Source: Candidatus Udaeobacter sp. (GTDB lineage: Bacteria; Verrucomicrobiota; Verrucomicrobiia; Chthoniobacterales; UBA10450). From it: a stretch of 42,089 bases of DNA. Shown piece by piece: positions 15,474 through 30,362 of the stretch. Location: positions 1 to 42,089 of the forward strand of contig JAALOD010000014.1 in the NCBI GenBank assembly GCA_013372845.1. The letters are read 5' to 3'. The notes beneath the pieces are model-generated. The model ran no database searches, was not told where the DNA came from, and saw only the letters and a list, made by a program, of their open reading frames with translations. Within the stretch, counting starts at the first letter, position 1. The number at the start of each line of letters is the position of its first letter. A program made the translations under genes and the position numbers.

Positions 15474-16949
15474 ATGCCAGTGTTAGCTCTCCATTCATTT
15501 TCCAAGGCGATCGAGATTCCGGCAGGGCTTCACAATCAACCGTTGGATGGGTGGCAAACGTCAGCGCGTCTCAGCACTTTGTTAAGCCGCTTCGGTATTC
15601 GTGTGCTGGGCGACCTCCATGGACGAAAGGTGGTTGATTTCGCCTGGGAAAAGAACTGTGGACCAAAAACTTTATATGAACTGGATTTGCTTGCGCGTCG
15701 CGCACGATTCCGAAACGGGAAGGCGTTTTGTAATTGTCACCGGCGCGACTGCGTTCATGCTTCGCACGATTTCTCTGCGACAGACAGCGAAGGGGCGACT
15801 GCAAAGATGCAAGAAGATGCGGCCAGCTTTGCCATTCCGAAATCGATTTGCCATCTCGCTTTCAACGAATTGCCTATAACGACGCGTTTGGCCAACGTTG
15901 TCCGTTCAATGGGTGCTCGGAGTCTTGGCGATCTCAACGGACGCAGCGCTTTTGAATTGCTCCAACACAGAGCCTGTGGGTGGGGCACGATTAGCGAGAT
16001 CCAACAACTGATTGAGCGCGCAGTTTCCGGCGAATTTGATGTTGCGCAGATTGAAGAGGCCGCGGCGGCGGCCGAATTATTGAGTTTGCTTGAGCAAGCG
16101 CTGGCCAAGCTACCCCTTCGTGACAGACAATTTGTTCTTGCCAGAATCGGAGCACAAACAGGGAACGGCCGCAGTCCGGGCGCAGATCTTCTCTGCCTGA
16201 GCTACGCAGAAATCGGCCGACGATACGGACTGACGCGTGCCCGGGTACACAAGGTGTTTGGAAACACGCTTGATAGTTTGAGGAAAATCTGGGGTCCGCG
16301 AGTTCCGCGGCTCCTCGAAGTAATAAAGTGGCGCTGTCTCTCGACGATTTGTCCACTAACTCCCCAATTGCTCGAGAAGTGGGTCGGCTCCCGCGCAGTC
16401 TGCTCGTCGCGGCCAACAACGCGTGATTGTTTGAACAGCTTTCGATTGTCGATGGAAGCGTATGTGCGTTTGATCGCGGCGCTGGACAAAAATATTCCGT
16501 GTCGGCCGGAAACGAATCATAAATTGCCACGCATCGACGACCCTGTCGGCCAGTTCGATCTCACTCTGGCGCACGTTGTGCGCGAAGCTGGTGGGCAGAT
16601 CACTGTTGCCGAAGCTTATCGCAGGCTCTCACATCCCGGAGGACGGCATTATCGCCGGCTGACAGTCGAAAAGTTTCTGCAAATGCTCCGCTGCGTCGAG
16701 TGCACCGTAGTAGAGTTCAAAGATCCGGAAGTACCGATTGTCAGTCTCCGTCCATCGAATGGTGGAGTTCTCTTTCGCGATGTTGCAGGCCAAAATGGCA
16801 AATCGTCAACCGCTCGGAAAGTTCGTTCTAATTTACCTGCGATTCAGTTTTTAAGAACGGCTTCTGCGAACGCCAAGCAATCGGAAGGCGCTAAACTGAT
16901 GCCCGTCTGTCCGGGTTTAAAGGCTACCACCCCCGTTACAATGTTGTAA
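15474..16949 (+). CDS. Putative regulator: two RNAP α-CTD-like domains plus a sigma-region-4-like HTH
   Basis: 491 residues. Residues ~24-77 and ~128-183 each match the helix-hairpin-helix pattern of the RNA polymerase α C-terminal domain (LLSRFGIRVLGDLHG... and VVRSMGARSLGDLNG...). Between them is a Cys/His cluster (C86, C88, C93, H95) that could bind a metal. Residues ~205-275 (LPLRDRQFVLARIGA... LSYAEIGRRYGLTRARVHKV) look like sigma-70 region 4. Residues ~350-410 may be another winged helix (GGQITVAEAYRRLSHPGGRH). The protein could contact DNA and polymerase, but its function is not established. A palindrome sits over its likely promoter and another at its stop codon. An α-CTD/sigma-4 transcription factor is my inference. 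Confidence 0.65.
   Translation: MPVLALHSFSKAIEIPAGLHNQPLDGWQTSARLSTLLSRFGIRVLGDLHGRKVVDFAWEKNCGPKTLYELDLLARRARFRNGKAFCNCHRRDCVHASHDFSATDSEGATAKMQEDAASFAIPKSICHLAFNELPITTRLANVVRSMGARSLGDLNGRSAFELLQHRACGWGTISEIQQLIERAVSGEFDVAQIEEAAAAAELLSLLEQALAKLPLRDRQFVLARIGAQTGNGRSPGADLLCLSYAEIGRRYGLTRARVHKVFGNTLDSLRKIWGPRVPRLLEVIKWRCLSTICPLTPQLLEKWVGSRAVCSSRPTTRDCLNSFRLSMEAYVRLIAALDKNIPCRPETNHKLPRIDDPVGQFDLTLAHVVREAGGQITVAEAYRRLSHPGGRHYRRLTVEKFLQMLRCVECTVVEFKDPEVPIVSLRPSNGGVLFRDVAGQNGKSSTARKVRSNLPAIQFLRTASANAKQSEGAKLMPVCPGLKATTPVTML
16936..16949 (+). promoter_or_regulatory. Palindrome site 2 at the end of the regulator gene
   Basis: TTACA and TGTAA around ATGT. It is the weakest member of the ATTACA-N4-TGTAAT set and overlaps the stop codon of the regulator gene (TAA 16947-16949). 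Confidence 0.4.
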
Positions 16950-17217: not shown

Positions 17218-18921
17218 ATGACAAAAACGTCACTTTTCTGTGGAATTTCCCTGCGATGGTTAGTTCAGTTGATCGCATGTATATGTTTGATATTTCCCAC
17301 CGTTACTCATTCGGTCTCCGCGCAAGAAGTAACATTAAGAGAGGAGCGGCCAATTGTAATTACGGGTGAGGAAGTTCCTAGCGCCTACGGCGCCCCTCCG
17401 GGACTCTCGCGCAGCCGTTTTTCCAACACCACGCAAGCCTACGTTTTGCCGCCGTGGGCATTTTTCTTTGGCGAGCTTTTTGAGGGCCAGGGGCTTCGCC
17501 ATGGACCACCCGATTATCTTTTCACCCAAGAGATCGAAATGGGTTTGCCCTATCGTTTTAACATCGCGGCCGAAACAGAGTTGGAACGATTTAATGGCGG
17601 TGGCGGCGTGCAGACAGTGAGCCTGGAAGCACGATGGGCTCTTGCTGATTGGAACAAGATTCCGCTCAATCCAACTCTCTTCGCGGAATACAAATTCGGT
17701 GTCGGCACGATTCGACACGAAGAAGTTCCACCTCCTCCAGGGGGAGGAGGAGAGGAAGAGGAGGAAGAAGAGGGCGGCCCGCCCAAGGTTCCCGATGCCT
17801 ACGAAGTTCGTTTGCTCCTTGCTCAGGATTTCTTCGAGCGCGTCGAATGGGCGATGAACTGGTTCTTTGAAAAAGAGAATACCGGCGACCGTGGGCGTGA
17901 GTGGGGCTTCTCTCAGGCTGCGATGATGCCGGTTCTCTTGCCTAACGAACGTCTGAAAGTCGGCATAGAAATGCTATATAAGAATGTCACGACGAAAGAT
18001 ACGCGCGGCGATGCCGTGAACAGCTTCGTCATCGGCCCAACAGTCGCGTGGAAACCGACCGCGCAAACTCGCCTGGACATCTCACCTTTGTTTGGCTGCA
18101 CGCACGATTCGCCGGTGGCCGATGTCTTTGTTGCCTTTTCCTGGCTCTTTGGTGGCGAACGCGGCGAAGCTGAAGCGCCCGTGTCCTCACGGTTCCGTTA
18201 TCTCAGCAAGGTTTCCCCCTCTGATAAGGACGCAGATAAAGAAATGAAACAGGTTGCGCCGCCGCCGTGTCCCGAATGGTATGGCGACAATGAATGGAAT
18301 GTGAATATATGGGGCACCTATGCTTTCACCAACACTGAGTACAACCCCAATCTTTGGCTGGTCGACGTGGTACAAAGTACCAGTGAAGGCCATCCCGTGC
18401 TGGGCACCTACGACCGTTACATCGGTGGCGATCACGCGTGGGGCGGCGGCGGCGATATCAAATACTTTTTCCATCGCTACTTTGGTGTGGGTATTGAAGG
18501 ATTTGCCCTCGATGCCAGCAAAAATGGTTTTAATATCTTCGAGGACCCGACGATCCCGATTTTTACTACTGAAAAAATCAATCACGACCACACTATTGGC
18601 GCTGTTTTAGGAACCCTGACATTGCGTTATCCAATTCCGTGCACGCGTTTTGCGCCCTACGCATGGGCAGGCGGGGGTGCGATTTTTGGCGGCGGCGAAA
18701 GAGATGTCCTTCACACACAGGGCCCGCCGGATGCGTTCGCCGTCCATGCGCAGACTGATCACTTCGGCAGCGAAACCAAAGCGCTCGGTCAATTCGGAGC
18801 CGGTCTCGAAATCCGCTTCGCGCGGCATATCGGTTGGACTAACGACTTGAGCTTCGGCGTGATCGATGGTCCAAAAAACAATTTCGGAATGGTCCGCAGC
18901 GGTCTGAACTTCGCCTTCTAG
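17218..18921 (+). CDS. Outer-membrane β-barrel protein, two barrel-like halves
   Basis: 567 residues with a signal peptide (ending near VTHSVSAQE). The first half (to about residue 340) has alternating strands such as EIEMGLPYRFNIAAETELER and RLKVGIEMLYKNV. A very acidic linker of Pro4-Gly4-Glu7-Gly2 lies near residues 168-190. The second half resembles an OmpA-like 'outer membrane β-barrel' (GVGIEGFALDAS, PYAWAGGGAIFGGGE, GAGLEIRFARHIGWTNDL) and ends in Phe, as barrel proteins do. No substrate is evident. The start has a weak GGGAT about 5 bases upstream. A regulatory palindrome overlaps its promoter and is shared with the regulator gene upstream. Confidence 0.7.
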   Translation: MTKTSLFCGISLRWLVQLIACICLIFPTVTHSVSAQEVTLREERPIVITGEEVPSAYGAPPGLSRSRFSNTTQAYVLPPWAFFFGELFEGQGLRHGPPDYLFTQEIEMGLPYRFNIAAETELERFNGGGGVQTVSLEARWALADWNKIPLNPTLFAEYKFGVGTIRHEEVPPPPGGGGEEEEEEEGGPPKVPDAYEVRLLLAQDFFERVEWAMNWFFEKENTGDRGREWGFSQAAMMPVLLPNERLKVGIEMLYKNVTTKDTRGDAVNSFVIGPTVAWKPTAQTRLDISPLFGCTHDSPVADVFVAFSWLFGGERGEAEAPVSSRFRYLSKVSPSDKDADKEMKQVAPPPCPEWYGDNEWNVNIWGTYAFTNTEYNPNLWLVDVVQSTSEGHPVLGTYDRYIGGDHAWGGGGDIKYFFHRYFGVGIEGFALDASKNGFNIFEDPTIPIFTTEKINHDHTIGAVLGTLTLRYPIPCTRFAPYAWAGGGAIFGGGERDVLHTQGPPDAFAVHAQTDHFGSETKALGQFGAGLEIRFARHIGWTNDLSFGVIDGPKNNFGMVRSGLNFAF

Positions 18922-18970
18922 CATCAATTACTACAAAAGGCGTATTGGCCCGACGCCTCGAAGAACATCT

Positions 18971-19020
18971 TCAGGGCTGACAGCCCCGAAAGCGTTCGGG
19001 GTTGCTGAAGTGGAGAAGCC
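18971..19020. repeat. GGGCTGA...CCCCGAA hairpin repeat, copy 2
   Basis: CCCCGAA (18984-18990) and TTCGGGG (18995-19001) flank AGCG. The block matches 17041-17095 over about 50 bases (TCAGGGCTGA, CCCCGAAAGC, TTCGGGGTTGCTGAA). Confidence 0.7.
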
Positions 19021-19045
19021 GCAGCCCGGTGGAGCGGGCTGCGGC
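19018..19045 (+). terminator. Strong stem-loop after the outer-membrane protein gene
   Basis: A perfect 11-base stem: GCCGCAGCCCG (19018-19028) and CGGGCTGCGGC (19035-19045) with loop GTGGAG. It could end the outer-membrane protein transcript, but no T tract follows, so a repeat role is also possible. Confidence 0.45.
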
Positions 19046-19096
19046 AACACTTCCTTATTTGAACGGCTTGTGTCAAGCGCCTTGGTTTTTGAGATT

Positions 19097-19117
19097 CGGC
19101 GTTTGCCACAAACGCCG
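19097..19117. repeat. Short perfect hairpin before the selenoprotein gene
   Basis: CGGCGTTTG (19097-19105) and CAAACGCCG (19109-19117) around CCA. A 9-base perfect stem with a three-base loop, in the leader or promoter region of the selenium locus. Role unknown. Confidence 0.6.
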
Positions 19118-19187
19118 CTACAACAGCGAGCATTTCTTGACCTCATTTCATCGCACCGATAGTTTCATTTCGGAAAGGAGATTGTCG

Positions 19188-19424
19188 GTGAAGACCGAGG
19201 TGTCGATCGAATACTGCGTCGTTTGAAACTACACGCCGAAGGCCGTCAGTTTGGCGGCCAAAATTCTTGAGCTCGGCGAGCGCATCAAGTCGCTCACGCT
19301 AATTCCCTCGAGCGGCGGCGCTTTCGAGATTCGCTCCAATGGCAAATTACTCCATTCCAAGCTCGACACCGGCGATTGGCCGGACTTCGACGCCATTGTC
19401 ACGGCGATCAAGAAAGCAAAATAA
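19188..19424 (+). CDS. SelW/Rdx-family selenoprotein, in-frame UGA read as selenocysteine
   Basis: 78 codons from GTG 19188 to TAA 19422-19424, with UGA (19224-19226) as codon 13. It reads VSIEYCVV-U-NYTPKAVSLAAKILE, then SLTLIPSSGGAFEIRSNGKL. This is the Rdx/SelW thioredoxin-like fold, whose redox motif is CxxC or CxxU; here C10-V-V-U13. Reading stays in frame on both sides of UGA, and the domain matches the family to its end. The start is decided by AAGGAG at 19175-19180, seven bases before GTG. Family members are small redox proteins of uncertain partner. It lies directly before selC-selD-selA-selB. A possible SECIS hairpin follows UGA. An alternative view is a pseudogene, which the downstream locus makes unlikely. 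Confidence 0.9.
19241..19259 (+). promoter_or_regulatory. Candidate SECIS hairpin of the SelW-like gene
   Basis: GGCCG (19241-19245) pairs with CGGCC (19255-19259) around a 9-base loop (TCAGTTTGG) that contains the GU step expected at the tip. The stem begins 15 bases after UGA, within the range used by bacterial SECIS elements, which SelB binds. It is read in frame as coding sequence. Confidence 0.55.
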
Positions 19425-19459
19425 GCTCTCCGCAATCCGCATTTCGCAATCCACAATCT

Positions 19460-19559
19460 GGAGAGTGAAGGGTGCCTGGTGGTCCTCGCGGTCTTCAAAA
19501 CCGCTGTCGGTTCCGCATACCCGGAACCGAGGTAGGTTCGATTCCTATCCTCTCCGCCA
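19460..19559 (+). tRNA. selC: tRNA-Sec (UCA anticodon)
   Basis: About 100 bases with encoded CCA (19557-19559). The anticodon arm is GCGGT-CTTCAAA-ACCGC with TCA in the loop. The long variable arm is GGTTCCG-CATACC-CGGAACC, a perfect 7-base stem. The T arm is GTAGG-TTCGATT-CCTAT. The acceptor end GGAGAG pairs with CTCTCC before GCCA. These are the hallmarks of bacterial selenocysteine tRNA, charged with Ser and converted by SelA. The innermost acceptor positions (T7 and G8) pair poorly. It lies 35 bases after the SelW-like gene. Confidence 0.95.
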
Positions 19560-19564
19560 AATTT

Positions 19565-19675
19565 CTCTCGTCATCCTGAGCGGATCCCGCAGGCGCGGGA
19601 GGAGTCGAAGGATCCCGTGGCCGTATCTAAAGGCATCTCAGCGGGATTCCTCGGCTTGGCTGGGTATGACGAGAG
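19565..19675. repeat. 111-base GTCAT-ended palindromic element, copy 1
   Basis: Ends in perfect inverted 10-mers CTCTCGTCAT and ATGACGAGAG. Inside are TCATCCTGAGCGGATCC and GGAGTCGAAGGATCCCGTGG. A second element with GTCAT/ATGAC ends and related words (GAGCGGAGCGCAGCGGAGTC) lies between selA and selB (22194-22304) and is also about 111 bases. It looks like a MITE or REP-like unit inserted between selC and selD. Confidence 0.7.
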
Positions 19676-19694
19676 CCAAAGGAGGTGACTACAC

Positions 19695-20753
19695 ATGACA
19701 CGTGAGCAGGTCCGTAAACTGACTTCGCTTTCATCCTGCGCCGGGTGAGCTTCCAAATTGAGCCAACAGGCCCTGCGACAAGTTTTGCCGCAGCTTCCGC
19801 TTTCCCTGGATCCAAAAGTTCTCGTGAACTCGACCACGTTCGACGATGCCGGTGTTTATCGCCTGGATCGCCATCGCGCGCTCGTGCAAACCGTAGATTT
19901 TTTTACACCCATTGTGGACGACCCTTTCTCGTATGGACAAATCGCGGCCGCCAACTCGCTCTCGGACATCTTTGCGATGGGCGGGCGTCCCTTGACCGCG
20001 CTAAATATTGTTGGTTTCCCGGAGGACCTGGTCCGGCCAAGAGTGATTGCTGCGATTTTGCGCGGCGGCCTCGCCAAAGCGGCCGAGGTGGGCTGCGCCA
20101 TCATCGGCGGTCATTCCATTCGCAATCCGGAACCAATTTACGGACTGGCTGTCACCGGAATGATCGACGTTCGCCGCCTGACAACAAACGCAAATGCGCG
20201 CCCTGGCGATCTGCTTGTGCTGACCAAGCCGCTGGGCACAGGCATCGCCACTACTGCGATCAAGCGCGGGATTGCATCGCGCACACTGCAGAAAAGGGTT
20301 GTCGCCCTGATGTCGAAAGTAAACACCGTAGGCGCCGAACTGGCCGAGCTTCGCCTGGTGCGCGCAGCGACCGACATAACCGGCTACGGATTGATGGGCC
20401 ACTTGGTTTCGCTGTGTCGCGCCAGTGGCGTCTCCGCTGAAGTCGATTCGAGTGCAGTGCCCATGATTGATGAGGAGATTGCCGAGTTAATCGAACAAGC
20501 CTGTATTCCCGGGGGCAGTCGCGAAAATCTCGTCGCCACAACCGTAGCTGTCGATTGGGGAAGCACGGATGATTCGCGGCGAATTCTCCTAACCGACGCG
20601 CAAACCAGCGGCGGATTACTGCTGTGCGTCCCCGAGACAAAGCTCGAAAAAGTGCTTGGAATTTTGCGGCAAAGGCGAACGCCTTGCGCCGCTGTCATCG
20701 GAAGAATTATTGCCCATCGGCCTCGTGGTCCATTGATATGCGTGAAAGGATGA
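19695..20753 (+). CDS. selD: Selenide water dikinase (selenophosphate synthetase), itself a selenoprotein
   Basis: 352 residues from ATG 19695. The ribosome site AAAGGAGGTGA (19678-19688) is near perfect. Codon 18 is TGA (19746-19748), in frame: LTSLSSCAG-U-ASKLSQQA. In SelD the catalytic Cys or Sec is followed by a conserved Lys, here U18-A-S-K21. After it comes the SelD core: DFFTPIVDDPFSYGQIAAAN, LSDIFAMGGRPLTALNIVGF, GCAIIGGHSI (ATP and metal loops), ending in TDAQTSGGLLLC. SelD makes selenophosphate from selenide and ATP for tRNA-Sec synthesis. A start at TTG 19758 would omit the catalytic region, so it is rejected. Its stop overlaps selA. Confidence 0.95.
19773..19793 (+). promoter_or_regulatory. 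Candidate SECIS hairpin of selD
   Basis: CTGCG (19773-19777) pairs with CGCAG (19789-19793), then an A-C mismatch, then CAA pairs with TTG around a GTT loop. The stem starts 25 bases after UGA, near the far limit for bacterial SECIS. The GU in the tip loop is present. Confidence 0.45.
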
Positions 20754-22180
20754 AACCGCGCTCGCGCCGGGAAATTCCTGCCGTTAACAAGATCCTTGAT
20801 GCGCTGGGCGAATACGACCTCGCCACGGCGAGCAAGCTGCCGCGTCCACTGGTTGTCGATCTGGTCCGACGGGAACTGTCGAAGATACGGAGCAACAGAG
20901 AGATCCCAGAATTTGAATCCACGATTGAACACCTCCATCGATCGCTTGAGCTACTTCGCGCTAGCCGGCTGCAACAGGTCATCAACGGAACCGGGATTGT
21001 GATTCATACGAATCTGGGGCGCGCGCCGATTGCCCAGGCAGCGATCCGCGCTCTCACCGAAATCGGCTCAGGCTATTCCAATCTGGAATACGATCTGGCA
21101 ACAGGTGAACGCGGCCATCGCGGCGCGTATATCGAGAATGCGCTCGCGCTGCTTTGCGGAGCTGAAGCCGCTACCGCGGTCAACAATTGCGCGGCAGCTC
21201 TCGTTCTAATCGTTCACCATTTTGCGGCGAGAAATGGCAGAGCACGGCCACAGCCTGCCCGCCGTGGTCGGGGCGCGCCGTCTAAAAACGAAATCATCAT
21301 TTCGCGTGGTGAAATCGTCCAAATCGGGGGCGGTTTTCGAATTGGCGAAATAATCGAAGCCACGGGCGCCATATTTCGCGAGGTCGGAGCCACCAACAAA
21401 ACAACACTCGATGATTACAGGCGCGCGATTGATTCCAGGAGCGCAATGATTCTGAAAGTTCATCGCAGCAATTTTTTTATGAGCGGTTTTGTCGACTCGC
21501 CGCCCGCGGCGTCCATCGCGGCGCTCGCGCGAAAAAAGCGGATTCCTTTTGTGGAGGATTTGGGCAGCGGCGCGGTTGTGCCGACTGAGCAATTTGGGAT
21601 TGCCGAGCACGAACCGACACCCTCGGAAGCATTGAAAGCCGGACCGGATCTGGTGTGCTTTAGCGGCGACAAACTCTTTGGCGGACCGCAGGCGGGAATC
21701 ATCGTCGGGAAGAAGCGATTCGTGGCAGCCTTGAAACGCGAACCGCTTTTTCGCGCTTTGCGTTGTGACAAGCTTTGTTTCGCAGCGTTGCAAGCCTCGA
21801 TCGATCTTCACCTGAATCAAACCGCAGTGGAAATTCCGGCGATTGGCCTGTTGCTGGTTACCGAAGACGAGCTGCGCAATCGAGCTGCGGCTTTGAAGGA
21901 CCGTCTGAGCGAGTTGCCACTGCAGATTGCGGTTGGCCGCAGTACAGCAAAAGTCGGCGGCGGCACGCTGCCGAAATCAACGATGGCGTCCGTAACAATT
22001 GAAATGGTTCCGAAGAATTGTTCGCCACTCGATTTGGCGGCGCGTTTGCGTCACGCGACTCCACCGCTGATCGGTCATATTGCAAATGACCGCTTCAAAA
22101 TCGATCTGCGCACAGTTTTTCCACACCAGGACGATCTCCTGGTTGACGCAATTCGCAGTGCGTGCGCCGAAAGTCTTTGA
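20738..22180 (+). CDS. selA: L-seryl-tRNA(Sec) selenium transferase
   Basis: 480 residues from ATG 20738, which overlaps selD by 16 bases. A second ATG at 20750 overlaps selD's stop as ATGA and is a plausible alternative. It is a PLP-dependent enzyme that converts Ser-tRNA-Sec to Sec-tRNA-Sec using selenophosphate. Seen: VINGTGIVIHTNLGRAPIAQ near the N-terminal third (conserved 'GTGxxxHTNLGR'), SRGEIVQIGGGFRIGEI, VEDLGSGAV, and the PLP lysine K312 in CFSGDKLFGGPQAG. An insert of about 20 residues (HFAARNGRARPQPARRGRG, about 161-179) rich in Arg and Pro sits before SRGEIVQ. Confidence 0.95.
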   Translation: MRERMKPRSRREIPAVNKILDALGEYDLATASKLPRPLVVDLVRRELSKIRSNREIPEFESTIEHLHRSLELLRASRLQQVINGTGIVIHTNLGRAPIAQAAIRALTEIGSGYSNLEYDLATGERGHRGAYIENALALLCGAEAATAVNNCAAALVLIVHHFAARNGRARPQPARRGRGAPSKNEIIISRGEIVQIGGGFRIGEIIEATGAIFREVGATNKTTLDDYRRAIDSRSAMILKVHRSNFFMSGFVDSPPAASIAALARKKRIPFVEDLGSGAVVPTEQFGIAEHEPTPSEALKAGPDLVCFSGDKLFGGPQAGIIVGKKRFVAALKREPLFRALRCDKLCFAALQASIDLHLNQTAVEIPAIGLLLVTEDELRNRAAALKDRLSELPLQIAVGRSTAKVGGGTLPKSTMASVTIEMVPKNCSPLDLAARLRHATPPLIGHIANDRFKIDLRTVFPHQDDLLVDAIRSACAESL

Positions 22181-22323: not shown

Positions 22324-24228
22324 GTGACAACGAAGCATTTCATCCTCGCGACTGCAGGGCATGTCGATCACGGTAAAAGTGCCCTGGTAAAAGCGTTGAC
22401 GGGAACCGATCCAGATCGGTTGCCCGAGGAAAAGCAGAGACAAATCACAATCGATCTCGGTTTCGCAGAGCTGAACCTTGCCGGGCCTGATGAGCAAGGT
22501 CTTCAAGTTGGAATCGTCGATGTGCCCGGTCACGAAGATTTTGTTCGAAACATGATTGCAGGTGTCGGCTCGATCGATCTCGGGCTTTTGGTTGTCGCCG
22601 CTGACGACGGCTGGATGCAGCAGACGGAAGAGCACCTGCAAATTCTAACTTACCTCGGAGTCGAACGAGCGGTGGTGGCCCTCACAAAAAGCGATCTCGG
22701 CGGGATCGACACTGCCACCCGGCAAATTCGTGATCGTTTGCGCCACAGTCCCTTCGCAAATGCGCAAATCATCGCGACCTCGGTTCGCAACGGTGATGGT
22801 ATCGAGACCTTGAAAAGAGCACTGGCGAGTGAGTTCGCCACCATGCATCCACCGCGCGACTACGGAAAACCGCGCTTGTTTATCGATCGAGTGTTTACCC
22901 TGCGCGGAATCGGCACCGTTGTTACGGGAACATTGACGGGCGGACAACTGCGCCGCGACCAGAAAATTGTTGTCCAACCCGGCAACCTCCACACGCGCAT
23001 TCGCTCAATTCAGAGTCACGGGCGCGATTTGGATGTCGCCGAACCGGGGACCCGAACAGCGATTAGCCTGCCGGATATCAGCGTGGACCAAATCAGACGG
23101 GGAAACATTGTCACCACCGCCGATTTTGCGCCTGCAAATTCGACTCTCATTGTTCTTCTCGAAAAATCAGCCCGACTTTCTCGCGAAAATCCCGGCGCGC
23201 GGCCGCTAAGAAGCGGTTCGTCGGTGTATCTTCATCATGGAACATCGCGTATCGCGGCGAAGATCACGCTCCTAAAAACTCGACTTCTTGAACCAGGTAA
23301 AAACGAGATCGCTCAGCTGAGACTCGTGTCGCCAATCTTTGCATTTGCCGGCGATCGTTTTGTTATTCGCGATGCGTCTGAACAACGTACCCTCGCTGGC
23401 GGAATGGTGCTTGATCCAAATGGCACGGAATTTCGTGATGAGACGAAACGCACATTGCTTATGGGTCGCGCCACTGCCCTGAACGACGTCCGTCGTTGGG
23501 TGCGCTCTGAAGTCGGACTGCGCGGATTTGTGCCGATTCCAGGTGTCCTTAGTCAATCTCACTTCAGCAACAGCGAGATCGCTGACGCCCTACTGGACCT
23601 GCAGCGCCATAAAGAGATTGTCATACATGAAAAAATCGCGGCTAGCCCCAGCAGCTGGCGGGCTTTGCGAGACCGCGCCACTCGTCTGATCGACAATACA
23701 CTGAGCAAGAATCCCGAACGCGTTGGTTACAACTTGAGCGATCTGCGCGCCGCGCTGCGCGACAAATCGACAGATGTTTTCGAGGCGCTGATGGCGGACC
23801 TGTGTTCGTCTGATTTCATCCGGAAAGAATCAGCCATTACACGACGCTCACATCGGCCAGCTTTGCCGGCAAAGCTGCAGCCTCTCGCAGCGAAAATTCA
23901 TGAAACCTTATCCAGGAAACCGTTCGATCCGCCGCCGCGCAAAGAACTTGAGCGGGACATGGACGAGCAACGAGCTCTCAAATTTTCGATAGAGAGCGGA
24001 AAAGTGATTGAAATCTCCTCGGACGTGGTGCTGTTGCGCGAGAACTTTGAGCGCATGAAAAGTGCAGTCGCTGATTTCATTTCCAAAAAGGGACCGGCAA
24101 CGGTGAGCGAACTGCGACAGGCGCTGGAGAGTTCGAGGCGAATCATGGTTCCATTTCTTGAACGACTCGATCGCGAAGGGTTCACACGACGCGTGGGCGA
24201 TAGGCGCACGCTTGGCAGAATCAAATAA
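22324..24228 (+). CDS. selB: Selenocysteine-specific elongation factor
   Basis: 634 residues from GTG 22324. The GTPase domain has G1 GHVDHGKS (12-19), EEKQRQITIDLGFA (the SelB switch I, often EEKKRGMTID), G3 DVPGHE (66-71) and G4 TKSD (121-124). Two β-barrel domains follow (for example FTLRGIGTVVTGTLTGG), then C-terminal winged-helix domains ending in ELRQALESSRRIMVPFLERL and RVGDRRTLGRIK. SelB delivers Sec-tRNA to UGA codons followed by a SECIS hairpin. G1, G3 and G4 are intact, so it should be active. It is separated from selA by a repeat but is on the same strand. Confidence 0.95.
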   Translation: MTTKHFILATAGHVDHGKSALVKALTGTDPDRLPEEKQRQITIDLGFAELNLAGPDEQGLQVGIVDVPGHEDFVRNMIAGVGSIDLGLLVVAADDGWMQQTEEHLQILTYLGVERAVVALTKSDLGGIDTATRQIRDRLRHSPFANAQIIATSVRNGDGIETLKRALASEFATMHPPRDYGKPRLFIDRVFTLRGIGTVVTGTLTGGQLRRDQKIVVQPGNLHTRIRSIQSHGRDLDVAEPGTRTAISLPDISVDQIRRGNIVTTADFAPANSTLIVLLEKSARLSRENPGARPLRSGSSVYLHHGTSRIAAKITLLKTRLLEPGKNEIAQLRLVSPIFAFAGDRFVIRDASEQRTLAGGMVLDPNGTEFRDETKRTLLMGRATALNDVRRWVRSEVGLRGFVPIPGVLSQSHFSNSEIADALLDLQRHKEIVIHEKIAASPSSWRALRDRATRLIDNTLSKNPERVGYNLSDLRAALRDKSTDVFEALMADLCSSDFIRKESAITRRSHRPALPAKLQPLAAKIHETLSRKPFDPPPRKELERDMDEQRALKFSIESGKVIEISSDVVLLRENFERMKSAVADFISKKGPATVSELRQALESSRRIMVPFLERLDREGFTRRVGDRRTLGRIK

Positions 24229-24231
24229 ACT

Positions 24232-27222
24232 ATGAAACGATCGCGGCCAGTCCTACTCGTTGCGCCGTCCGTTGAGGAAGCCTGGGACGATGCGATTGCG
24301 CCCTGGTTCGAACTAGTTGTGCCGGGAGCTTGGAAGCACCCGTTGCCTTCGCTGGTTGTCGTCCCAACGCGTGGACACGTCAACGATCTCAAGGCGCGTC
24401 TGATTGCAAAAGGCTTTTCGCATCTCGGTTTGCAGTTTGTAACGCCGGCAAGCTTGCGTGCTTTGCTCGCACGGGACGATGCAGCGCCTCCCGTCAAGCC
24501 GGAACACCTTCGTCTGCTCCTCGCAATTGCCGCGAACGAAATGGAAGATCGGCCTAACGAATCCGAAGCGCTCGCTGCCAAAGCCGTTGCTCGAGCGCCC
24601 GCGCTGCTGCTACGTGCATTGGATCGCCTTGAAACTGCCGGTTGGAAATTTGAAGAACTTGCGCTGCCGTCGTTTGCGCCAGTGGTTCAGCGTTTTAACG
24701 AGCTGCTGGAAAAATGCGGTTTTGTTCTTCCGGTCGAGATCGATCGAAGGCGCCTGCAAAAAGCCGCGGGCGGCGAGCGAAAGTTTTCCCATGTGCTTAT
24801 CACCGGTTTCGATGGAGCGCATTGGGGGGACTGGTTTCTCCTGCGCACCGTGGTCGAACTGGCGGAAAACACCACTATCGTGCTCGAGGAGCCGCGAGAG
24901 AATTTTTCCGACATCGATCTTTGCTGGATTGGCTCATGGGAAGAGGTCTGCGGTGAAGCGCAACGCGCGCTGAAACCGGCGCGGCTGCTTGGTGATTCGC
25001 TTTTTAGTGAAGCTGAAATGCGCGGAAGCGCGGAAACGACAAAGTGCTTCGATTTTCTGATCGGCACAAACTTTTCGGAACAAGCCGAAGCGATCACGCG
25101 GCAATGCGTTCGTTATTTGGCAGATGAGAAATGCACGCGGCTCGGCGTGGTCTTTACCGGCAAAGGGGCGTTGCCGCGGCTGGTCGCGAGCTCGCTAGAC
25201 CGGCTTGAAATCCCGCACAATGACGGACTCGGTCACATTGTTCCCGGCATTTTCGAATCGGCAGAGTGGCAGGCATGGATCGAATTGCAGCGCGCGGCAC
25301 GACTCTATTCCTTTCTGCGTTTTCTAAATGCGTTGCCCGATCCGGCGGTCGTATCGACTAAAATCAGCCGGCAAGTTTTCGAAAAAATTCTGCGCGAAAG
25401 TTACAAGGAGGTGTTGCTGGACGATCTCGAACTGCTGCGCGAATTCTGTGCCACGCACGCGGACGATAAATCTCAGTCGGCCGCCAAAGCTCTGCGCGAG
25501 CTGCCGCTTCTCCCGCCGCGCGCAACCCTTGCGGAGTTTCTCGAACAGACTCACGCCGCGCTTGCCCATCTCGACTGGAAGCAACACGCGCTCGAACTTG
25601 CCAACGTCGCGCGTGATTGGTCGCAGCGTCTCGATGCGAAATTTTCACGCGCGCTCTTTTTGCGGTGGCTGGAAGAAACAGCTGCGACCTCAGATGCCGC
25701 CCGCTCAGCCGCAGGCGATCATCCGTATGCGCGCGTGCAATTAGTCACGGTGGCGCGCGCACAAAATCAGGAATGGTCGCACTTGATTCTTGCCGGCTGG
25801 AACGAAGGGGCCTGGCCGCCGCCAGCCGGCGCGGAGTTCGCACGCCCCGACGAGATTCGCGCCTTTAATCGCAGCGTGCAACAGCTCAACAAGCGCGCCG
25901 CGCGCCAGGGAAGCCAGGGCGCAGGCCACACCAGTGTGCGTGAAAACCATTCGCTCTATCTCGGGCCGGGCGAGCAACGCGCGATCGCGTTGCGGCAATT
26001 CGATGCGCTCCTCGAATCGGCCATCGAAGGGGTGACGCTCGCGGCCAGTCTGGTGCAGGAAGATGCGCCGGAACGCTTCTGGAATCCGAGCGAATGTTTT
26101 ACCGAGATTTATCTCAAAACGCGGCGTGAGCCGCTCACTCAAACGACGTTGAAAAATCTGCAACGCGCCACTGCGTTGTTGCCGAAGCCTGCTGCGGCAG
26201 CGACGGATGTGCAGCAAACCCTGATCGCGTTCAACACGCGCCGCGACTCATCTAAAGCTGCCGGCGAATATGATTTCGCGTTGCGGTCCAACGAGTCGTA
26301 CCGACCGGTGCCGAAGCTGAGCGTGAGCGATCTCGAGCGAATGGTTTCGTCGCCAGCAATTATTTGGATGAAGCGTTATCTCGGCATGGAAGCACCGGAG
26401 GATGCTGCGAATCCCTGGGCTGCGACGACCGGTAAATGGGTGCACGACTGGCTGGCGAACATTATCGAAGCCCGGGACGAAAGGATTTTCTCGGCGTTTC
26501 CGTCCCTAATAAAGATCGACAAGCGCATCCGGCTTGCCGCGGACGAACGCTGTGCGACGCTTCGGCGTCTTTGCGACTTGTTAGGCAAAGTCGTCCCTGA
26601 TTGGTGGAACTCGGGTTGGTTGAACGCGCGCTATCTCGCGCGGCACCTCGGCGCCAAAATCGGAGGTGCGAAAGGATGGGAGTGGATGGCGACGGAGTTG
26701 TCCGTCGGTCGCGAAGGGGCGGTGAAAATTGCCGATGGCGTGGAGCTTGAACTGCACGGCCAAATCGATTTGGTGCTCGCGCAAAATGACGCGGCCAGTT
26801 TCGCCGGGCAAAAGATCTGGATTGTCGATTACAAAACCGGTTCGGCCAGGGAACTGAAGACCTCCGATTTGCACGACAATCTGGTCAAAGGCACAACCTT
26901 GCAGCTCGGTCTTTACGCGCTGGCCATGCGCGAGCTTGGCGCCGCCCAAGTGAGCGTGAGCATTATTTCGCTCGCGGTTAAAAACGTCGCGCCACAATTG
27001 TCCGTTGTCGATCTTGCACCGCATACCGACGTCTTTGCCGATCTCGCGGAAATGCAGCGCACCGGGGTTTTCGGAATGAAAGGTGAAATCCGTCCAGCGT
27101 TTGGTTACAGCGCGCCCTATCCGCTCGCCACGTTGCAAATCGATAACGATATTTTGGAAGATAAATGGGCGCTGACGCACCCCGCGCTCGTCCTTGAGAA
27201 AGAGGAGTGGGAAACATGGTGA
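24232..27222 (+). CDS. addB: AddB-like helicase-exonuclease subunit with C-terminal PD-(D/E)XK nuclease
   Basis: 996 residues, starting three bases after selB's stop. The N-terminus (VLLVAPSVEEAWDD, then LVVVPTRGHVNDLK) lacks a Walker A motif, as in the alphaproteobacterial type of AddB, where the helicase site is inactive. The middle has RVQLVTVARAQNQEWSHLIL and GWNEGAWPP, the usual AddB core. The nuclease lies at about residues 840-930: ELELHGQIDLVLA supplies the metal Asp, then IWIVDYKTGSA and LQLGLYALAM (the QxxxY motif). With AddA it forms a DNA end-processing enzyme for recombination. Its end overlaps addA by 7 bases (addA starts at 27216). Confidence 0.88.
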   Translation: MKRSRPVLLVAPSVEEAWDDAIAPWFELVVPGAWKHPLPSLVVVPTRGHVNDLKARLIAKGFSHLGLQFVTPASLRALLARDDAAPPVKPEHLRLLLAIAANEMEDRPNESEALAAKAVARAPALLLRALDRLETAGWKFEELALPSFAPVVQRFNELLEKCGFVLPVEIDRRRLQKAAGGERKFSHVLITGFDGAHWGDWFLLRTVVELAENTTIVLEEPRENFSDIDLCWIGSWEEVCGEAQRALKPARLLGDSLFSEAEMRGSAETTKCFDFLIGTNFSEQAEAITRQCVRYLADEKCTRLGVVFTGKGALPRLVASSLDRLEIPHNDGLGHIVPGIFESAEWQAWIELQRAARLYSFLRFLNALPDPAVVSTKISRQVFEKILRESYKEVLLDDLELLREFCATHADDKSQSAAKALRELPLLPPRATLAEFLEQTHAALAHLDWKQHALELANVARDWSQRLDAKFSRALFLRWLEETAATSDAARSAAGDHPYARVQLVTVARAQNQEWSHLILAGWNEGAWPPPAGAEFARPDEIRAFNRSVQQLNKRAARQGSQGAGHTSVRENHSLYLGPGEQRAIALRQFDALLESAIEGVTLAASLVQEDAPERFWNPSECFTEIYLKTRREPLTQTTLKNLQRATALLPKPAAAATDVQQTLIAFNTRRDSSKAAGEYDFALRSNESYRPVPKLSVSDLERMVSSPAIIWMKRYLGMEAPEDAANPWAATTGKWVHDWLANIIEARDERIFSAFPSLIKIDKRIRLAADERCATLRRLCDLLGKVVPDWWNSGWLNARYLARHLGAKIGGAKGWEWMATELSVGREGAVKIADGVELELHGQIDLVLAQNDAASFAGQKIWIVDYKTGSARELKTSDLHDNLVKGTTLQLGLYALAMRELGAAQVSVSIISLAVKNVAPQLSVVDLAPHTDVFADLAEMQRTGVFGMKGEIRPAFGYSAPYPLATLQIDNDILEDKWALTHPALVLEKEEWETW

Positions 27223-30200
27223 AGCCGCACGACGAGTCTGTGCGCGCTCGTTTTGCCAGCGATCTGGACCGCAATTTTTCTGTGGTCGCGTCGGCGGGCT
27301 CGGGCAAAACCACTGCGATCACGCAGCGCGTTTTGTCGATCGCGCGTTCACCGAACGCCGCGGAAACTCTGCCACGTCTGGTCGTCGTCACCTTCACCAA
27401 TCGTGCAGCGGACGAAATGCAACAGCGCACGCGGCAAGCTCTGCTCCAGGAAAATTTGCGAAAGGGAGTGCAGACCGCGTTTAATCACGCCTTCTTCGGC
27501 ACGATTCATTCTTTCTGCATGAAACTCCTAACGGACTTCGGTCATTATCTTGGCTTGCCAGCGCCGCTCGAGTTGGTCGAAGACGATGACGATCTCTGGC
27601 AGGAGTTTGCGCAGAATCAAACGCGCATCGGTCGTTCGCTGGGCGAAAAAGATCGCGCGACGCTTTTGCGCTTCGTACAGGCTCGGGATCTCATGGAACT
27701 GGCACGACGCGCGGCTTCGGCTGTTTTGCAGGTGCCAGGGCTTTCGCCGTGTCCGCCGCTCGATTTCACTGAGGTCCATCAACAGGTCGATCAAGCGGGC
27801 CGCGACAACATCAGCAAATCGCAGGCGGAGTTGCACGAATGGGAGACACGTCACGCCGGCGATTGGGAATACTTGCGCTGGCCGGTCTGTTTCACAGCGG
27901 CAAACGCCAGGTTCACTCAACTCTGGCAGGAGAAATTTGCGCCGCTTCGAAAATGGGTATGCGACGCGGCCGCCTGCGTGGCGGCGGAGGTGCAACGCGA
28001 TTATCTCAATTTTCGACTCGACCGCGGACTCGTCACGTACGGCGATCAAATCGCGCTCGCGGAACAGTTGCTGCAACATTCGGTCGCCGCGCAGAGGATT
28101 CGCGAAGAAAACTTTCGTGTCATTCTCGATGAGGCGCAGGACACCGAGCCGTTGCAATTTTCCGTGCTGCTGGAAGCGACGCGCCCGCCGGAAGCGAAGG
28201 GCCTTTGGTTGCATGATCGGCGATCGCCGCCGCGGCCCGGCCATTTCTGCATGGTAGGCGATTTCCAGCAATCAATCTACTGGGAGCGTGCGGACTTGAA
28301 TTATTACCGCGCTGTTCACGAAGCGCTCATTGCCGACAAGCACGGTGAGAGCCTGGAATTTGCCGTCACGTTTCGGCTCGACCAGAAGCAGCTCGATTTC
28401 GTTAACGAAACTTTCCGTGAGATTTTAAATAACAGGGACGGACAGGTGCGCTTCGTCGAATTGCAACCGCGCCCGAAAATTCTTCCCGGGAAAGTCATTC
28501 GGGTGCCGCTTGTCGCGAAGGAATTGTTGCCAGAAGGAAAAAAGCTCAAAGACTACCAAAAGGCACGCTTCGAGGCGGAATATCTGGCGCGATGGATCAA
28601 GGAGGCAGGACTGAAAAAACTTTCGGCCGATTCGTGGCGGGAGGTGGCGATCCTTTGTCCGCGTAAAGCCTGGCTGCAAACGATGGCCGCAGCGTTACGG
28701 CGCGTCGGCTTGCCGGTGTCGATCCAATCTGAACGCGATGTCAAAGGCGACAGCCCGGCTTATGCGTGGTTGACCGCGCTCCTCACCATCATGATCGACC
28801 CGCTCAACGCGTACGAAATTGTCGGCGTGCTCCGCGAGATCTTCGGCGCGTCCGATCACGATCTTGCCGTCTTTTCCGAAGGGCAGAAAGCGAGATTTCG
28901 CATCGACGAGATTTTGTCGGCGACCGGAAGAATTTCCTCGCTCATGCGGACGCTCGCAGAAATTCGCCCACGCGCAGAAGGTCTGGCGTTATTCGGCGCC
29001 GTTACTTTGATCATCGAGCAAACGCAATTGCGCGAGCGTCTGCTCCTATTGCCGGCCACGGAGTTCGGCGATCTTGCGCGTGAACTTGATGCCTTGCTCG
29101 CACAAGCGGCTGAAGCGGAAGCGAACGGAATGATCCTGGCAGAGTTTGCCGAACACCTGCGCAACGATTTCGCGACGCCGCGCGCCGTCCGTTTTTCCGC
29201 TGACGACAATGCGGTCCAACTCATTACTTCGCACAAGGCGAAAGGCTCGGAATGGCAAGCGGTGATCGTGCCATTCCTCGCGCGCGAGCTGCGGCCGCCC
29301 TCGCCGCGTTATCCGCATTTCGTGAAATCGCCCGTGAATGGCGAACTGATTATCGCGTTCGGCAAAGAAGACAAATCTAAGGATTTGAAAGACGCGACCG
29401 AGCGTGCCCAACAGCAGGAACTTGAACGCCTTCTCTATGTCGCAACAACGCGGGCGCGCCACGCGCTCGTAGTCGTGCTCGATCAGGAAATCTTCTCCAA
29501 TAGCGAGGGCAAACTGCCCCGAACAGCCCAACTTCGACGCCTGATTCGCGACAAGGACTCTTATTCCGGCGAATTCGATCAACACAGCAGTACGATCGAT
29601 GAAGTCCTCGAACCTTCCCCGACCGTGGGGCACCCACCGCAGAAAAACGGCGCCGAAATCGAGTCGTTAACTTCTCGCGAACTCAAGCGCGCCGCGAAAC
29701 GCGCTTCGGAATTCGTGCGCAAGATCACACCGAGCGCGCTCGATTCGGAAGTGCCGGCAGAAGTGCGGACGCGTTCGCGGCTCGATAACCTGGCCACGCT
29801 CTACGGCCGCTGGTGGCACAGATTTTTCCAGCGTCTGGATTGGAGGGGCGGAATCGACTCCGCGCAAAAGTTGTTCGACAAAGAATTGCCAATTTCTCCC
29901 GATGCAAAAGCCGCGGCGAAAGACTGGAAGGCAACACGCCAGAACTTGTTCAACGATGCCAGCATCGCTCGTTTTCTTGCGAGCGATGAAACGTTATTTT
30001 ATTCCGAGTTTCCGTTTTTGTGGCGCAGGAACGACCGCAGCGTGCTTGAAGGCTTGATCGATTCGATCATGATTAACCGCAAAGCTGGGCGGTGTCTTCT
30101 CCTTGATTGGAAAACAAACGATGTTTCATCAAGCGATGCCGAAATATTTCGGGCGCGTTACCGTCCGCAGTTGTCGGCCTACTGGAAAGTGGTCGAGGCA

Positions 30201-30362
30201 ATTACCGGTCTCGAGGTGGAAGCTGGCTTGTTTTCGACCGCCCTGGGACGTTCGCTGCCTTACTCTAAGGATGAACTGCAAAGCGAATGGCGCCGTCTGG
30301 AACAACTTGCGCCCGGACGACTCGAGAACGATATTCGACCGGACGCGCCCGATGACTTTTAA
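27216..30362 (+). CDS. addA: AddA-like UvrD-family helicase-nuclease subunit
   Basis: 1048 residues from ATG 27216, preceded by a GAGGAG ribosome site inside addB. Walker A is ASAGSGKTT (25-33), then VVTFTNRAADEMQ (Ia), ILDEAQDTEPLQ (motif II, DEAQ), MVGDFQQSIYWERAD (III), the motif IV-VI region including LITSHKAKGSEWQAVIVPFL, and YVATTRARHALVVVL (VI). The C-terminal nuclease has ILIDWKTN-type residues (LLLDWKTNDVS) and YRPQLSAYWKV. It is the motor and one nuclease of AddAB (equivalent to RexAB or RecBCD), which resects double-strand breaks. It is the terminal gene of the run and convergent with the inositol synthase gene. Confidence 0.9.
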   Translation: MVKPHDESVRARFASDLDRNFSVVASAGSGKTTAITQRVLSIARSPNAAETLPRLVVVTFTNRAADEMQQRTRQALLQENLRKGVQTAFNHAFFGTIHSFCMKLLTDFGHYLGLPAPLELVEDDDDLWQEFAQNQTRIGRSLGEKDRATLLRFVQARDLMELARRAASAVLQVPGLSPCPPLDFTEVHQQVDQAGRDNISKSQAELHEWETRHAGDWEYLRWPVCFTAANARFTQLWQEKFAPLRKWVCDAAACVAAEVQRDYLNFRLDRGLVTYGDQIALAEQLLQHSVAAQRIREENFRVILDEAQDTEPLQFSVLLEATRPPEAKGLWLHDRRSPPRPGHFCMVGDFQQSIYWERADLNYYRAVHEALIADKHGESLEFAVTFRLDQKQLDFVNETFREILNNRDGQVRFVELQPRPKILPGKVIRVPLVAKELLPEGKKLKDYQKARFEAEYLARWIKEAGLKKLSADSWREVAILCPRKAWLQTMAAALRRVGLPVSIQSERDVKGDSPAYAWLTALLTIMIDPLNAYEIVGVLREIFGASDHDLAVFSEGQKARFRIDEILSATGRISSLMRTLAEIRPRAEGLALFGAVTLIIEQTQLRERLLLLPATEFGDLARELDALLAQAAEAEANGMILAEFAEHLRNDFATPRAVRFSADDNAVQLITSHKAKGSEWQAVIVPFLARELRPPSPRYPHFVKSPVNGELIIAFGKEDKSKDLKDATERAQQQELERLLYVATTRARHALVVVLDQEIFSNSEGKLPRTAQLRRLIRDKDSYSGEFDQHSSTIDEVLEPSPTVGHPPQKNGAEIESLTSRELKRAAKRASEFVRKITPSALDSEVPAEVRTRSRLDNLATLYGRWWHRFFQRLDWRGGIDSAQKLFDKELPISPDAKAAAKDWKATRQNLFNDASIARFLASDETLFYSEFPFLWRRNDRSVLEGLIDSIMINRKAGRCLLLDWKTNDVSSSDAEIFRARYRPQLSAYWKVVEAITGLEVEAGLFSTALGRSLPYSKDELQSEWRRLEQLAPGRLENDIRPDAPDDF

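Follow-up and report, generated by a model that had tools for sequence, protein, structure and literature searches.

SelW-like proteins have been known among bacterial selenoproteins since 2005 (PMC1088965), and they formed the most abundant family both in the Sargasso Sea set, with 48 genes (PMC1088965), and in the GOS set, with 427 (PMC2398784). A 2006 survey placed them among the families for which Sec-using organisms have hardly any Cys homologs, or none (PMC1794560). In Campylobacter jejuni, SelW (CJnc60) is a protein of 80-81 aa whose UGA is decoded as selenocysteine, its full length being supported by ribosome occupancy, a termination peak and proteomics (PMC11955535). The function of the family is described as unclear; the CxxU motif suggests a redox role, and an earlier report of an interaction with glutathione is mentioned (PMC1088965). 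The SECIS element of bacterial SelW-like genes lies right after the UGA (PMC1088965, PMC2398784), while that of eukaryotes sits in the 3' UTR (PMC1088965).

We herein analyze a stretch of 42,089 nucleotides from a Candidatus Udaeobacter metagenome-assembled genome (the window), in which a SelW-like gene precedes the selenocysteine machinery; selW and the sel genes described below lie on its forward strand. Like the marine genes, it encodes a SelW-like domain with CxxU and carries a bacterial SECIS-like hairpin directly behind the UGA. It differs from them in host lineage, since 37 of the 40 related loci that come from named genomes bear the titles Verrucomicrobia, Spartobacteria or Chthoniobacterales (the other three are titled Acidobacteria, Anaerolineales and Anaeromyxobacter, one each), and perhaps in its position before selC-selD-selA-selB. 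The encoded protein also matches the model of the Campylobacter group, NF041051 (SelTWH_Campy), from end to end, but with 71.7 bits against a cut-off of 88, and thus stands outside that equivalog group. A literature search, mostly outside subscription journals, yielded no paper on selenoproteins of the window's lineage; co-mentions of Chthoniobacter and selenoprotein exist, and a co-mention of Udaeobacter and selenocysteine concerns the pathways of a nematode symbiont (PMC7857533). Hence, what is new, as far as that search reaches, is the host lineage, together with the conserved gene cluster, whereas the SelW selenoprotein family itself has long been known; our findings add a Sec-using clade to a family that the cited papers report in marine data sets, Deltaproteobacteria and Epsilonproteobacteria.

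The gene occupies positions 19188-19424. It begins with GTG (19188-19190), runs for 78 codons to the stop codon TAA (19422-19424) and contains one in-frame stop before it, the UGA at codon 13 (19224-19226), which gives the motif C10-V-V-U13. The first-pass annotation, made from the sequence alone, had proposed exactly this arrangement, and the coordinates and motif proved correct to the nucleotide, as did the ribosome binding site that it had placed seven nucleotides before the GTG (AAGGAG, 19175-19180). Its assignment to SelW/Rdx was borne out by two family models: when Cys is put in for the UGA, the protein scores 64.5 bits (1e-17) against PF10262 (Pfam Rdx; cut-off 22.6) and 54.8 bits against TIGR02174 (NCBIfam; cut-off 34.2), and the predicted fold agrees. 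A six-frame search of the window's own genome, a MAG that is 83% complete, gave a single Rdx match (1e-14) with one TGA inside; given this, along with the Pfam score, the match is not a matter of chance. Genes as short as selW can escape annotation altogether, and SelW genes of Epsilonproteobacteria in particular are reported to have been wholly missed (PMC4607533). In the region 18900-19760, a scan for sigma-70 promoters found none, and two terminator-like sites were detected where 0.8 would be expected.

Comparison with relatives revealed that the UGA is a fixed feature of the gene. The loci were gathered by several overlapping routes, and one organism may stand behind more than one of them; where this bears on a result, we count distinct sequences. 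We searched 98 genomes, counting that of the window, and Rdx exceeded the cut-off in 43, each match containing exactly one stop, a TGA; in the family to which the window belongs, 43 of 61 genomes have SelW (its own genome counted). The stop falls in the same column in all 72 sequences read, i.e., the window and 71 loci, one of which (L001) is the window's own place, and the column is shared even by the loci titled Anaerolineales (L070, 54% identity) and Anaeromyxobacter (L071, 40%). Codon analysis was performed on 42 distinct coding sequences from 98 loci, leaving aside L002 and L088 (gap), L070 (partial) and L071 (which starts at residue 5). In all 42, codon 13 is TGA, codon 10 is TGC and a GGAG lies within 20 nt upstream of a start codon that keeps its place (GTG in 34, ATG in 6, TTG in 2). 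Since the TGA recurs in all 43 Rdx-positive genomes and all 42 coding sequences, it is not an assembly slip. The first reading had also held that the domain is preserved to the natural stop and had named frameshifts or other stops in close relatives as grounds for abandoning the gene; the Rdx match spans the UGA, the coding sequences run 77-79 codons throughout, and the loci read contain neither frameshifts nor further stops. Purifying selection acts on both sides of the UGA, with a pN/pS ratio of 0.104 before it (codons 2-12) and 0.170 after it (codons 14-70).

The aligned homologs without an in-frame stop carry Cys in place of the UGA. In a draw of 387 genomes from the phylum, Rdx was found in 48, with no stop in 40 and one TGA in 8. 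We fetched 30 of the stop-free, Cys-type loci; nine were aligned with SelW by tblastn, and all nine have Cys at the UGA column. Six of these entered an alignment of 18 sequences, in which C10 and residue 13 (U taken as C) are invariant.

Behind the UGA, positions 19241-19259 can form a hairpin, GGCCGUC-AGUUU-GGCGGCC, with a 7 bp stem, a loop at 19248-19252 and 21 nt between UGA and loop; in a variant favored by RNAfold, the A pairs with the last loop U, giving 8 bp and the loop GUU. A published bSECIS model specifies a loop of 3-9 nt, an upper stem of 4-16 bp, a G within the first two loop positions, a spacing of 16-37 nt and an MFE of -7.5 or lower (PMC13188914). Checked by hand, the selW hairpin lies within these bounds (G second, followed by U; 7 bp; 21 nt; MFE -14.1). 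Among the hairpins compared with shuffles for stability, it alone clearly exceeds them (z -2.38); four of its 200 shuffled sequences fold equally well. When 29 distinct sequences are read in one fixed register, pairing holds in 183 of 203 cells (90.1%), and four of the seven pairs show changes on both sides, a number reached by one of 500 shuffles. The covariation score of 0.207 exceeds all 500 shuffles (0.109) and every version with a slid register (0.083 at most); kinship alone can beat shuffles without any structure, while the slid versions retain the relatedness. All 29 sequences have G at the second loop position (AGUUU in 22, GGUCU in 4, and AGUCU, CGGGU and CGUGU in one each). Moreover, synonymous sites vary less around the hairpin: pS is 0.229 in codons 14-30, compared with 0.463 before (codons 2-12) and 0.393 beyond (codons 31-70). 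The structure is not uniform among relatives: the third pair is a C-A mismatch in 7 of the 29 distinct 42-nt sequences (38 of 107 loci), RNAfold favors another fold for six of the nine distinct 51-nt sequences with this mismatch, and the hairpins of four distant relatives do not stand out clearly from their shuffles in stability (z 0.43, -0.89, -0.61 and -1.57).

An internal control is provided by selD (selenide, water dikinase; 19695-20753), itself a selenoprotein gene by its sequence, with the motif SCAGU and its own predicted Sec codon 18 (UGA 19746-19748), an interruption that the first-pass annotation had not mentioned. Its putative hairpin (19773-19793) has one A-C mismatch and the same loop as that of selW, AGUUU, 32 nt after the UGA; in the window its stability does not exceed that of shuffled sequences (z -0.19). 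The SelD codon is covered in 97 of 100 loci, with TGA in 92 and TGC in five, the latter representing two distinct sequences from two lineages. In a fixed register, 220 of 240 cells pair in the 30 distinct TGA sequences, 28 of which have the AGUUU loop, whereas the two Cys sequences read AGUCC at the loop position and retain three of eight pairs each. The SelW genes beside these Cys-type SelD genes (L064, L072 and L123; L074 and L124) keep both UGA and AGUUU loop, with a mismatch at the third pair in L074. Hence, the hairpin tracks the use of Sec rather than the protein, and in selD the use of Sec, its replacement by Cys and the loss of the SECIS occur side by side in nature and can be compared within one bacterial family.

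The window also holds the rest of the machinery, and the order selC-selD-selA-selB downstream of selW, read earlier from the letters, was recovered with ARAGORN and Rfam for selC and with family matches for the others. The tRNA-Sec gene selC (anticodon UCA) lies at 19460-19559 according to ARAGORN and at 19460-19555 according to Rfam. The open frame of selA (L-seryl-tRNA(Sec) selenium transferase) spans 20624-22180; its first part runs within selD, and the family match sets in at residue 48-49, so that translation of selA probably begins near 20750. selB, the Sec-specific elongation factor with its C-terminal winged helix, follows at 22324-24228, so that all four sel genes are present in the genome. 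We examined 102 selW sequences, the window included, which are of unequal length, come from overlapping search routes and in many cases end before selA or selB. The order selW-selC-selD is found in 98, with selA next in 84 of them; in two, ARAGORN gave no tRNA-Sec (selW-selD-selA), in two, L070 and L071, selW stands alone, and one sequence has two tRNA-Sec genes. At the level of the 98 genomes, selB or selD was detected in 42 of the 43 with SelW, and neither in 46 of the 55 without it; these counts take SelB as present in G017, G026 and G034, where it falls below the cut-off, and otherwise the former is unchanged and the latter becomes 47 of 55. The Fisher value for this association is not to be read as a probability, since the relatives are not independent. 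One SelW genome, G035, has neither selB nor selD above the cut-off; in L065, a locus with the same SelW protein, selC and part of selD lie near the end of the contig, and the exception probably stems from the assembly. A DNA-level plasmid search matched 34 records; among the matches listed, all five fall in selD or selB stretches.

An AlphaFold2 model built from the 18 aligned sequences (pLDDT 91, pTM 0.78) predicts for SelW a small thioredoxin-like Rdx fold, with C10 and U13 in the turn between a strand (residues 3-10) and a helix (16-27). In a Foldseek search of the PDB, the first 21 rows are bacterial Rdx/SelW-related chains (2fa8 with TM 0.91), and row 22 is mouse SelW (2npb, TM 0.74); MIEN1 (2ljk) and then thioredoxin-like proteins are also found. 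The bacterial Rdx structures 2fa8, 2obk, 2p0g and 2oka, with TM 0.87-0.92 to the model and 26-31% identity, are presumably CxxC proteins without SECIS. Mammalian selenoprotein W has CxxU; mouse 2npb shares the Rdx fold with the window's protein but is weakly similar in sequence (phmmer E of 0.013). SelW most likely acts as a thiol/selenol redox protein, by selenenylsulfide-dithiol exchange, possibly with glutathione or another small thiol system.

Taken as a whole, the window gene almost certainly encodes a SelW-like selenoprotein of the Rdx family, and its product is very probably a genuine redox protein of small size that contains selenium, the UGA being read through. The gene, the conservation of its UGA, the SECIS-like hairpin and the Sec machinery are each borne out by sequence, and we infer that selenocysteine is inserted at codon 13 in the window's organism. 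Ribosomes would start at the GTG (19188) and meet the UGA at codon 13, where SelB, carrying Sec-tRNA(Sec) from the adjacent selC, would dock on the hairpin at 19241-19259; selenocysteine would be inserted and translation would proceed to the TAA at 19422, giving a 78-residue product with an Rdx domain and Cys10/Sec13 at the first strand-helix turn. TGA does serve as a stop in this DNA, as it ends seven of the 17 long open frames picked in the window and is the final stop in four of the 42 distinct selW coding sequences, and the UGA might accordingly be a plain stop that leaves a pseudogene or a 12-residue leader peptide with an untranslated downstream part. The conservation of the TGA and the codon analysis largely contradict this and make it highly improbable: codons 14-70 evolve under purifying selection (pN/pS 0.17), and all 42 coding sequences extend to 77-79 codons, with the Rdx domain lying across the UGA. 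The TGA codons that end long frames in the window also speak against codon 13 being read as some other amino acid, through genome-wide reassignment or near-cognate read-through. Any read-through would preserve the frame, but selW adjoins a tRNA-Sec(UCA) together with selA, selB and selD, homologs have Cys in the same column, a covarying hairpin follows the UGA, and in the two lineages where the SelD codon is TGC (Cys) the selD hairpin is gone; we consider the chance of such a reading close to negligible.

A further proposal adds to the selenoprotein explanation and does not exclude it, namely that SelW also serves the selenium pathway, e.g., by carrying or reducing selenium for SelD, and stays beside selC-selD-selA-selB for this reason. 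It would fit the conserved gene order and two distant loci from one other family, L155 and L156, where selW, tRNA-Sec, selA and selB stand in a row. On the other hand, fdhA adjoins sel genes in other bacteria, where the neighborhood is read as co-transfer (PMC1794560), and three other distant loci (L157-L159) contain no sel gene within the fetched 7-8 kb, so that, with L070 and L071, five of the seven distant SelW-Sec loci lack one in the fetched stretch. We regard this role as unlikely. It is likewise doubtful that a soil lineage has here a compact, co-inherited selenium module whose two Sec proteins, SelW and SelD, have the AGUUU loop in common and in which SelW supplies selenium to SelD beyond a general thiol redox function. 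Sample names giving depths in cm suggest a soil habitat for many of the relatives. The related locus titled Acidobacteria (L036) has the SelW cluster of Verrucomicrobia MAGs; it is probably a misplaced contig, and transfer may also account for it.

The notion that SelW and SelD are the genome's only Sec proteins was dropped when a peroxiredoxin-like gene with an in-frame TGA was found (L161, G000:C55:19647-20036, minus strand). It encodes an AhpC/TSA-like protein (PF00578, 3.3e-31) with the TGA in RGFW-U-PLC (UxxC), a hairpin loop AGUUG 16 nt after the UGA and an N-terminal part that by eye looks membrane-spanning; judged from these features, it is a probable third selenoprotein of the genome. 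TGA-bearing molybdopterin matches in the relatives were rejected as new proteins, 13 of 16 stretches (L107-L116, L119, L120 and L122) holding a Sec site of the type ARIUHSSTVPGLG, a motif which we take to be that of formate dehydrogenase; in the other three (L117, L118 and L121) frame picking found no such site. The 13 formate-dehydrogenase-like genes have the hairpin loop GGUCU, compared with AGUUU in SelW and SelD; GGUCU occurs in the formate dehydrogenase hairpin of E. coli. The alpha subunit of formate dehydrogenase was searched for in the 83% complete genome to which the window belongs, and no match was found. Within the window, a 491-aa frame at 15474-16949 shows an odd pairing of weak matches, both just below the Pfam cut-offs, to the RNA polymerase alpha C-terminal domain (residues 130-181) and to sigma-70 region 4 (209-271). 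Downstream of selB, a 996-aa frame with a PD-(D/E)XK nuclease domain (24232-27222) is followed by a 1051-aa frame (27207-30362), and the two are perhaps an AddB/AddA-type pair.
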